A stretch of DNA of 64,000 nt, taken from the NCBI RefSeq assembly GCF_032116555.1, contig NZ_CP134949.1:1-64000 (forward strand), in the 5' to 3' direction. Each line of letters opens with the position of its first letter. The stretch's first letter is position 1. The notes beneath the pieces were generated by a model, which saw only the letters and a list, made by a program, of their open reading frames with translations, had not been told where the DNA came from and searched no databases. Made by a program: the position numbers and the translations under genes. The DNA comes from Halobaculum sp. XH14 (GTDB lineage: Archaea; Halobacteriota; Halobacteria; Halobacteriales; Haloferacaceae). Positions 10,844 through 48,667 of the stretch are shown in pieces.

Positions 10844-10924
10844 GTCGTGGCGCACACCTCGAAAGCCCGCGCGGCCCCTTTCACTCCCGCCCACTGCGCC
10901 TCACCCTCCCCAGCCTCCTGTGCG
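10844..10924 (-). repeat. Modular hairpin repeat, copy A
   Basis: Reading the minus strand, the order is AGGAGGCTGGGGAGG, a GC-rich spacer, GTGGGCGGGAGTGAAAGGGG, a short CCGCGCGG palindrome, GGGCTTTCGAGG and GTGTGCGCCACGACAA. It lacks the long variable stem of copies C and D. It forms an inverted pair with copy B. Confidence 0.7.
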
Positions 10925-11130
10925 TTACCTCGGAGCAAACTCCTCGGAAGTCACCCTCGCTTCGCTCGCGTGAGCCTCGCACGAGCGGTCTCGCTACGCT
11001 CGATCGCTGCGCGCCACGTGGCCCGTGTCAGGTCGTGCGGTCGGCGCGTGCCGGCGGGCCTCCGTTCACGCGAGCGAGCCTGCGAGCGAGGGTGATCTCA
11101 CGAGACCACAGGTCTCGGGGAGTGCCCGCC

Positions 11131-11275
11131 GGGTGCGCGCGAGGGATGAGCGAGTGAAACGAGCGAATCGGCTGGGAGGCGTGTGGCTGTGCGGGGCGGC
11201 GCAGTGGGTGGGACTGAAAGGGGCCGCACCGAGCCGACAGGTGCGGGGGCTTTCGAGGCGTTCGATGCGACAACT
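11131..11275 (+). repeat. Modular hairpin repeat, copy B
   Basis: The left module GCGCGAGGGATGAG is at 11137-11150, GGCTGGGAGG at 11170-11179, GTGGGACTGAAAGGGG at 11208-11223 and GGGGGCTTTCGAGG at 11245-11258. The variable stem between them is CCGCACC (11224-11230) pairing with GGTGCGG (11240-11246) around a 9-base loop. Flanking GAAAG and CTTTC also pair. Confidence 0.75.
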
Positions 11276-18693: not shown

Positions 18694-19108
18694 GGGAGTT
18701 GCGATGAGGGATTCAGCCGGGTGGCGCGCGTGACGGCGAGCCCCGCAGGGGCGAGCGGACGCGCGCGAGGGACGAGCACCGCAGGCTCGCGAACGCGGTG
18801 AGCGAGCCGAGGAGCACAGGAGGCTGGGGAGGCTGAGGTGCTGTGCGGTGGCGGGGCGGTCTGGGTGGGACTGAAAGGGGCCGCGGCTGTCGGCGAACCC
18901 CGGCGCCTCAAGCACCGCAGGGAGCGAACGAAGTGAGCGACCGAGGAGCACAGAGCGTGCCGCGGGAGCCGACAGCCGCGGGGGCTTTCGAGGTGCTCCT
19001 CGCTGAACCCGAACGGGCGACGAGTGCGAAACGTCGAGAATCAAGCCACGCGGCGAATTTCGAGAACAGTCCCCACGAACCTCGACGAACGCCGGAGTCG
19101 AGTGATCC
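18694..19108. other. Gap between convergent genes
   Basis: No gene; almost entirely filled by copy C of the modular hairpin repeat. The remaining 100 bp before the HAD gene is AT-richer and featureless. Confidence 0.7.
18727..19007 (+). repeat. Modular hairpin repeat, copy C (longest)
   Basis: Fullest copy. Left block GCGTGACGGCGAGCCCCGCA to about 18773; linker GAGCACCGCAGG (18774-18785); hairpin GGCTCGC/GCGAGCC; linker GAGGAGCACAGG (18809-18820), then AGGCTGGGGAGG; GTGGGACTGAAAGGGG ending 18880; stem arm CCGCGGCTGTCGGC (18881-18894), a 73-base insert repeating both linkers, partner arm GCCGACAGCCGCGG (18968-18981), and GGGCTTTCGAGG. With GAAAG/CTTTC flanks the long stem is perfect apart from a GGG/GGG internal loop. 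Confidence 0.82.
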
Positions 19109-23516: not shown

Positions 23517-23748
23517 TGCCGCGACTACCTCGAAAGCCCCCGCGGCCCCTTTCAGTCCCACCCACCGCAACCGCACCGCCCCGCACCTCACCCTCCCCAG
23601 CCTCTTGCGCTTCTCGCTCCCTGCGGTCGCTGTCGTTCGAAAGGCGCTTCGCGCCTTTCGTGATGACGAGACGCCGCTGGCGTCTCGAACCACGATGCTC
23701 ATCCCTCGCGCGCGTCCGCTCGCCCCTGCGGGGCTCGCCGTCACGCGG
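23517..23748 (-). repeat. Modular hairpin repeat, copy E
   Basis: Minus-strand copy. Left block GCGTGACGGCGAGCCCCGCA ... GAGGGATGAGCATCG (23694-23748) is nearly identical to copy C. It is followed by two perfect hairpins, CGAGACGCC/GGCGTCTCG (23667-23687, 3-base loop) and CGAAAGGCGC/GCGCCTTTCG (23638-23660, 3-base loop), then GAGGCTGGGGAGGGTGAGG and GTGGGACTGAAAGGGG. The final variable stem is reduced to CCGCGG before GGGCTTTCGAGG (end near 23528). It fills the gap between the RHH gene and tatC2. Confidence 0.8.
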
Positions 23749-47987: not shown

Positions 47988-48206
47988 TCATCCCTCCGTC
48001 TCCCCGTCCAGCCCCTCCTCGTCGACCTCCACGAGAAAGCCCGTGACGTACGAGAGCAGCGCGTAGAGGCCGAGCGCGACGACGACGAGCGCGCCGAAGC
48101 CGACGACGGGGGCCTGCGCGATGAGGTAGAACGACGCGAGGAGGAGGAGCAGCGCGAACATGCCGAGGAGGGCGTCGATGCGGACGAGCAGGTCGGTGTC
48201 GGCCAT
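47988..48206 (-). CDS. Two-helix small membrane protein
   Basis: A 72-residue protein, MADTDLLVRI followed by two adjacent helices (LGMFALLLLLASFYLIA and GFGALVVVALGLYALLSYVT) and an acidic tail EVDEEGLDGETEG. The ATG at 48206 is preferred to one 27 bases upstream. No known family. A copy of the modular repeat lies immediately upstream. Confidence 0.65.
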   Translation of the reverse strand: MADTDLLVRIDALLGMFALLLLLASFYLIAQAPVVGFGALVVVALGLYALLSYVTGFLVEVDEEGLDGETEG

Positions 48207-48667
48207 GACTTTTTCGAGGGTACGTCGGACCAAAAGAATGCGGGCCGTTTCCGGTGGGGCGACGGTTCCGGGGGAGCGTCGTCAGGCGCGCGGCGGCCGC
48301 GCGGAGCGCGGCCGCTCGTGCGAGGGACGAGCATCGCAGGCCGAAGGCCGAGGAGCGCAGGAGGCTGGGGAGGGCGAGGTGCGGTGGGTGGGACTGAAAG
48401 GGGTCGGCTGGGTACGCGAACCCCGGACCCGCAAGCACCGCAGGGCGCGAACGGAGTGAGCGACTGAGGAGCGCAGCGTGGTCCGCGGGAGCGTACCCAG
48501 CGGGGGGCTTTCGAGGCAGTCGTCGCTAAATCCGAGCCATCACAGAGTGCGACACGTGATAAACCGCCAGCTGCAGGGGCTTTCGCGGTGGTTACCCCAG
48601 CAATCCCAGCGGCAGCAAAGTCACCTAACCAACTCCCAAAACGTAAGAACCCTCGATCGAACGAACC
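48207..48667. other. Gap filled by modular repeat copy D
   Basis: No gene. The repeat occupies about 48300-48530. A second fragment with GGGGCTTTCGCGGTGGT at 48577-48593 resembles the right end of the repeat and is followed by AT-richer sequence with no feature. Confidence 0.65.
48300..48530 (+). repeat. Modular hairpin repeat, copy D
   Basis: Linker GAGCATCGCAGG (48329-48340), small hairpin GGCCGAAGGCC, linker GAGGAGCGCAG (48350-48360), AGGAGGCTGGGGAGGGCGAGG, GTGGGACTGAAAGGGG to 48403. Stem arm GCTGGGTACGC (48407-48417) pairs with GCGTACCCAGC (48491-48501) across a 73-base insert that repeats both linkers (48434-48444, 48466-48476). It ends GGGCTTTCGAGG and CGTCGCTAAA. Layout and lengths match copy C although the arms share no sequence. 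Confidence 0.82.

Follow-up and report, generated by a model that had tools for sequence, protein, structure and literature searches.

A family of nested palindromic repeats in Halobacteria that probably grows by insertion into a conserved hairpin

In the 64,000-nucleotide stretch of haloarchaeal DNA analysed here (the window), a pair of short linker sequences occurs both outside and inside the long stem of a single element, which raises the question of how such a nested arrangement comes about. The element, termed copy D, occupies positions 48390-48516 and belongs to a set of some hundred repeats scattered through the genome of this salt-loving archaeon. An earlier note on this DNA had placed the linker pair both outside and inside the long stem of copy D, and this layout proved exact, the outer pair lying at 48330-48360 and the inner at 48434-48476; the inverted repeat 48396-48417/48491-48512 indeed encloses 73 nt, and copy C (18867-18993, plus strand, a single-insert form), with its stem at 18873-18894/18968-18989, is built in the same way. 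Read along the plus strand, copy D is preceded by an outer linker-hairpin module (48330-48360), which is composed of the linker AGCATCGCAGG with one mismatch (48330-48340), a hairpin (48341-48349), and the linker GAGGAGCGCAG (48350-48360). A G-rich spacer (48361-48389) ending in GGGT follows, and most of the 93 genomic sites described below have GGGT or GGGC before the foot. The foot, or host, hairpin begins with the conserved 5' arm GGGACTGAAAGGGGTCG (48390-48406) and closes with the 3' arm GGGGGGCTTTCGAGG (48502-48516), while its centre is occupied by a 95-nt insert (48407-48501), recognized from the 32-nt short copies and from orthologous short/long pairs. The outer stem pairs 48404-48417 with 48491-48504, as indicated by the inverted repeat and by covariation, and the middle stem pairs 48421-48429 with approximately 48480-48489, two-sided changes being found in all 7 of its 7 helix pairs. 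Innermost are the 5' linker AGCACCGCAGG (48434-48444), a hairpin (48445-48465), and the 3' linker GAGGAGCGCAG (48466-48476), the two linkers pairing through GCACC/GGAGC. A degenerate second 3' foot arm lies downstream as a direct repeat (48574-48588, plus strand).

The two linkers differ in how far they stand out from the window. With at most one mismatch, the AGC linker AGCACCGCAGG gave 6 matches against 1.22 expected, a number reached by 0 of 100 shuffles, and the GAG linker (GAGGAGCRCAG) gave 6 matches against 4.71 expected, reached by 35 of 100 shuffles; by count alone the latter is not significantly over-represented, and its four exact matches are confined to copies C and D. Most copies also carry GGGTGGGACTGAAAGGGG...GGGGG, represented in copy D by 48386-48403 together with 48502-48507, and these four G-runs could possibly fold into a G-quadruplex in which the nested stem makes up a loop. 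Potassium is abundant in haloarchaeal cells.

The 3.68-Mb genome, comprising three contigs, was then surveyed with the two ends of the foot hairpin. The left end GGGACTGAAAGGGGCCG at up to two mismatches returned 111 matches against 0 for the control, and the right end CGGGGGCTTTCGAGG returned 224 against 15. From these, 93 sites were extracted, 91 of which carry the left end at this threshold (91/111). The proposal that short, single-insert, and multiple-insert forms coexist was borne out by their classification: 18 of the 93 were short (30-39 nt), 46 held a single insert (107-139 nt), 20 were multi-insert forms (at least 150 nt), and 9 fell elsewhere (two of 49-63 nt, five devoid of the right end, and two with a weaker left end). 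Stretches from two related genomes yielded a comparable series among 82 sites, namely 14 short, 42 single, 13 multiple, and 4 intermediate forms and 9 without the right end. In its short form the element consists of a conserved 32-nt hairpin with a CCG|CGG centre, and it is at this centre, as had been suggested, that the insert is located; the usual insert of about 95 nt (single forms of 107-139 nt minus 32) has its own matched arms and is frequently flanked by CCGCGG at both ends. The inner linker pair was present in 42 of the 46 single-insert and 19 of the 20 multi-insert copies and in none of the 18 short ones. The outer pair was found in 17/46 and 8/20, respectively, so the description of the linkers as occurring once outside and once inside applies to copies C and D and fails for most copies.

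Other members of the series lie in the window. Short 32-nt forms without an insert are found on the minus strand at 23528-23559 and at 10857-10888, the latter being the divergent partner of a 49-nt form at 11210-11258 (plus strand) that retains part of the 3' outer arm. It probably represents a long form that has collapsed, and both the 49-nt and the 63-nt form look like such losses. Upstream of many short copies, for instance L067, L073, L056, and L062, the flank is of another kind and contains a covarying hairpin, whose stems include GACTACC/GGTAGTC, GACACCC/GGGTGTC, and GACTGAC/GTCAGTC; perhaps this flank represents an older form of the element. At several sites the 3' foot arm CGGGGGCTTTCGAGG also repeats downstream at a spacing of 57 bp (C1:437409/437466/437523, 443510/443567, 828751/828808, and 1082407/1082464), giving a tandem-like tail without 5' arms.

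The role of the linkers became clear from a consensus fold built on 44 single-insert copies, one of the 45 references (L079, whose insert is inverted) being left out. The fold contains 30 pairs in four helices, i.e., the foot GAAAG/CTTTC, an outer stem of 14 pairs, a middle stem of 7 pairs, and a linker helix of 4 pairs in which GCACC pairs with GGAGC and a CG pair is replaced by UA in three copies. Two-sided changes were observed in 20 of the 30 pairs. Paired cells amounted to 94.7% against 73.8% in shuffled alignments, and covariation reached 0.459 against 0.128 for the shuffled (sd 0.009) and at most 0.099 for slid versions, figures whose independence is overstated in that the structure was drawn from the alignment on which it was scored and the copies are relatives of one another. 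The linkers recur, therefore, because both form the base of one hairpin that is present in two places, and the alternative that they serve as tags was rejected, the two pairing together at the base of the innermost hairpin. The earlier suggestion that the linker-hairpin module is the unit copied did not hold: what is inserted is the whole unit of about 95 nt, complete with an outer and a middle stem. Nor was local copying of the module supported, the likeness of inner and outer hairpins within a copy being 0.107 against a permuted mean of 0.114 (p=0.56) in the 18 copies having both.

What is preserved in these copies is the match between arms, the arm sequence varying from copy to copy while complementarity is retained inside each. 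Among 65 long copies, the outer arms match at 10.4 of 14 positions within an element and at 7.7 of 14 between elements (0 of 10,000 permutations), and matching also holds for both the outer and the middle arms of the single-insert copies that could be parsed, 42 of 46 (0 of 5,000 permutations for either stem). These parsed copies hold 28 outer, 27 middle, and 36 innermost-hairpin sequences in many combinations. The foot stem covaries as well, reading GAAAG/CTTTC in 71, GGAAG/CTTCC in 8, GAACG/CGTTC in 1, and otherwise in 8 of 88 sites, and its internal mismatch is kept, being exactly GGGG/GGGGG in 74 of 88 sites of this genome and GGG/GGG in 67 of 73 in the relatives. The longest perfect stem is at most 14 bp in 65 of 67 long copies; the remaining two reach 15 bp and 24 bp, and the latter (C1:2608245) resembles the product of palindrome correction. 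In the minus-oriented half of L147, from the related genome G293, the 3' foot arm complements the 5' foot arm almost perfectly, where a mismatched arm is usual, as if it had been corrected from that 5' arm. The insert lies inverted inside the same foot in L079 and L145. Among 13 linker modules situated far from a left end, four (L065-, L038-, L013+, and L021+) have an outer 5' linker flank that runs into the 3' flank of an inner linker, as would result if recombination had removed what lay between two nested modules.

Comparison with the related genomes revealed that occupancy and form both vary. The intergenic site of copy D is empty in both relatives, the gap measuring 456-468 bp in this genome against 105 and 61 bp. 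Among 11 orthologous pairs chosen for matching on both flanks, a difference by the insert was seen in five, which are short in one genome and long in the other at the same place and in the same orientation. Four are short in this genome and long in the relative (L055/L147, L056/L166, L049/L138, and L035/L172); in L055/L147 both halves of a divergent pair differ in this way, and in L035/L172 the short copy is degenerate. L032/L143 is the opposite case, long here and short in the relative. Both copies are long with differing arms in L065/L160 and L082/L156, the copy of this genome is degenerate in L052/L145, the site is long throughout in L017 compared with L140 and L176, and at L038/L142 the element is missing here and occupied in the relative. 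The outer modules differ in the orthologous flanks of L049/L138, which may be independent arrivals. Beside the genes orthologous to those at L055 and L056, no element was found in a third species or an outgroup, so that the direction between short and long is left unpolarized at these sites, and at the empty sites the ends of the element and any target duplication are unreadable because the flanks have diverged.

Nesting extends to further levels, where five recurring double-hairpin modules of 50-75 nt were recognized. DH4, which spans 55-60 nt and is arranged as TGGTTCGA-hairpin-TCGTCATCACGAA-hairpin-TCGAACGA, keeps its constant strands invariant between copies while its hairpins vary. It lies after CG and before C (CG^C) in 11 of 11 cases and before CAG in 8 of 11, its hosts being either of the inner linkers (5' or 3'), an outer linker, and a DH1-like context; no target duplication was seen on comparison with uninterrupted linkers. 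The window holds one such module in an outer linker at CG^CAG (23633-23692, minus strand) as well as a DH1 module (10925-10974, minus strand). At L018 (C1:925079), the sequence 5' of DH4 is an inner-linker flank and that 3' of it is of DH1 type, an arrangement that would fit recombination of two elements through DH4.

The sites are mostly intergenic, 16 of the 93 overlapping a predicted ORF according to a crude ORF caller. Most are single halves, and where neighbours are close (within 600 bp on the main contig) they are divergent in 9 of 9 cases. With the same crude caller, no preference for gene orientation was detected among 71 sites (20/19/16/16), i.e., the 93 minus the 16 that overlap an ORF and the 6 lacking a flanking call on one side. 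At up to one mismatch, 165 of the 292 class genomes and 52 of 77 genera contain the left end, with 88 copies in this genome and 48, 83, 84, 44, and 46 in G292, G293, G146, G135, and G260, respectively. Genus g30, from another family, has the same host foot hairpin with a different insert devoid of these linkers. In genus g27, two long halves were observed back to back (L200, L201, and L202), their left ends about 49 bp apart, with a shared hairpin centre of about 30 bp and outer ends CCAGAAAGCCCC...GGGGCTTTCTGG. Plasmids of Halobaculum halophilum, Halobaculum salinum, Halorussus, Natrinema, and Haloplanus hold relatives, with no annotated feature beneath the match, and the exact short form was detected by a collection scan in one named record, from Halobaculum gomorrense. 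None of 50,697 phage records gave a match, and a virus-borne element was rejected, four exact 16-mer matches in viral contigs (G+C 0.54-0.67, no right arm) looking like chance.

Candidate enzymes were also sought. The Y1 transposase domain PF01797 gave no match in this genome or in G292, G293, G146, G135, and G260, and it is present in 19 of 30 genomes searched; the reverse transcriptase domain PF00078 gave none in 10 genomes, this one included. Retro-movement was rejected on the latter result, a diverged enzyme being possible. Since neither enzyme was found, non-autonomous repeats served by a trans-acting activity are favoured.

The reading preferred here, to which a probability of roughly 0.6 is assigned, is that copy D belongs to a family of non-autonomous palindromic mobile repeats of Halobacteria that grow by nested insertion. 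It rests on a dispersed, mostly intergenic distribution indifferent to gene orientation, varying site occupancy, orthologues that are short in one genome and long in another, inverted inserts, arm covariation, the fixed target of DH4, divergent neighbours, and the unrelated-looking insert found at the same tip in another family. The base unit would be the foot hairpin GGGACTGAAAGGGGCCG | CGGGGGCTTTCGAGG, a conserved structure whose foot pairs as GAAAG/CTTTC, whose GGG/GGG stays unpaired, and whose tip is CCG/CGG; in some places two halves of it stand divergently. The tip would act as a landing site for a palindromic unit of about 95 nt (outer stem, middle stem, and linker-based inner hairpin), and the expanded element and its flank would in turn receive double-hairpin modules of 50-75 nt, at least one of which has a fixed target and shows no target duplication. 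The folded single strand would be the substrate of a trans-acting enzyme or of a replication-coupled strand switch, and hairpins with fixed mismatches would be what some trans-acting activity recognizes. The main direction would run from short to long, and the matched arms would be maintained mainly by selection for the fold, one arm occasionally being corrected from the other. A further step, put forward tentatively, is that the fold and not the sequence is kept, so that concentric shells (foot, outer stem, middle stem, inner hairpin, and double-hairpin inserts) behave as exchangeable matched pairs, spread and nested by an activity that recognizes folded hairpins, with no Y1 transposase or reverse transcriptase detected. 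Several points weigh against the mobile reading: no mobilizing enzyme was found, the diverged flanks of the empty sites hide the ends of the element and any target duplication, the direction from short to long is unpolarized, one of the five short/long pairs is long here and short in the relative, the 49- and 63-nt forms look like losses, L049 and L138 may have arrived independently, and such strong conservation of the fold could reflect an RNA function.

That the long forms are ancestral and the short ones arose by deletion between the CCGCGG repeats at the insert ends is judged rather unlikely. CCGCGG does often stand on both sides of the insert, the 49- and 63-nt forms look collapsed, and the modules in which an outer 5' flank runs into an inner 3' one resemble deletions between nested modules; however, inserts occur in both orientations and form a multi-level series with a fixed target, and the unrelated-looking insert that occupies the same tip in another family argues for gain at this tip. 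Hairpin-templated correction and strand switching at palindromes, known as quasipalindrome correction, could produce matched arms by mutation alone, without mobility of the insert or selection. The 24-bp perfect stem of C1:2608245 and the complementary arm of L147 are of the kind expected, but stems should then lengthen, whereas 65 of 67 long copies lack a perfect stem above 14 bp, the GGG/GGG mismatch persists at the frequencies given above, and the same modules appear at unlinked sites with a fixed target. This origin is accordingly regarded as quite improbable.

Two other accounts would assign the hairpins to a known kind of element. Under the first, they belong to a structured non-coding RNA, or an RNA-like regulatory element, that is present in many copies and tolerates expansion of its peripheral stem; an RNA function would maintain the fold, and nesting would be only stem expansion. 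The two-sided changes, the fixed mismatches and internal loops, and a foot conserved across the class are what such an RNA would show; yet about a hundred copies, presence and absence at orthologous sites, divergent paired halves, and the lack of an orientation preference speak against it, and Rfam contributes no match, giving 0 in the window at gathering thresholds (Rfam 15) and 0 at E up to 1 within 48150-48650. An RNA element is thus considered unlikely, and a transcription terminator or UTR element was rejected on the absent orientation preference. Under the second, the family is REPIN-like, and its foot hairpin is the substrate of a Y1 transposase, either of IS200/IS605 type or associated with REPs, that mobilizes it. 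Imperfect hairpins and divergent pairs agree with the general REPIN layout, as far as it is described in the excerpts of PMC3116915, but PF01797 is absent from all six genomes named above despite their 44-88 copies each; IS200/IS605 or RAYT mobilization was rejected on its absence from the genus, which leaves this account very improbable.

How short palindromic repeats without an enzyme of their own originate, grow, and spread is an open question, and a nested-hairpin family offers a rare chance to study growth of palindromic mobile DNA by nesting. The coexistence of short, single, and multiple forms, orthologous sites with and without the element, and a readable module target make both stepwise growth and the missing enzyme testable, in relatives of genetically tractable archaea. 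The family also carries a warning that strong stem covariation in dispersed copies need not imply a functional RNA. Fungal mitochondrial double-hairpin elements and cyanobacterial small dispersed repeats are further relatives in kind.

No description of a nested foot-hairpin family was found in the open-licence PMC papers searched, and no haloarchaeal motif is named in the excerpts of PMC2864571. Nearest among described systems are the SMR-A repeats, REPINs, and yeast mitochondrial GC clusters. The excerpted account of SMR-A from Haloquadratum walsbyi (PMC3119063) describes an element of about 110 bp with terminal inverted repeats and many copies, situated in the near-terminal palindromes of PATEs or IS605-type transposons, for which no target duplication is reported and mobilization is called enigmatic. 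Compared by description, the present insert is likewise haloarchaeal, about 95 nt long with matched outer arms, and placed inside the palindrome of another element, where the CCGCGG centre could hide a target duplication. Unlike that described for SMR-A, the host here is a conserved REP-like foot hairpin, for which no link to IS605 elements was found and Y1 is absent, the nesting runs several levels deep, and the arms covary as matched shells. Judging from the portions of PMC3116915 and PMC3733652 available, REPs and REPINs are also short, imperfect, extragenic, non-autonomous hairpins, often in inverted pairs, and the present family is a high-copy, short, extragenic imperfect palindrome (111 left ends) with inverted pairs in 9 of 9 cases; it departs from REPINs with RAYTs in lacking a Y1 transposase in the genus and in bearing large nested inserts in the hairpin tip. 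In the excerpts of PMC4478555, the GC clusters of yeast mitochondria are tiny palindromic mobile units under a fold constraint that merge and shuffle, so that one homologous site can hold a stand-alone or a merged form; they are organellar, an AG target duplication is reported for them, and a reverse transcriptase is available there, none having been found in the 10 genomes searched here. The repetitive hairpin-forming elements of sponge mitochondria, which invade intergenic DNA and are scattered, are similar in behaviour and again organellar, layered matched shells being unmentioned in the excerpts of PMC2800124. Within the portions of the SMR-A, REPIN, and GC-cluster accounts compared, concentric matched shells around a conserved foot are undescribed, and it is this feature that sets the present family apart.
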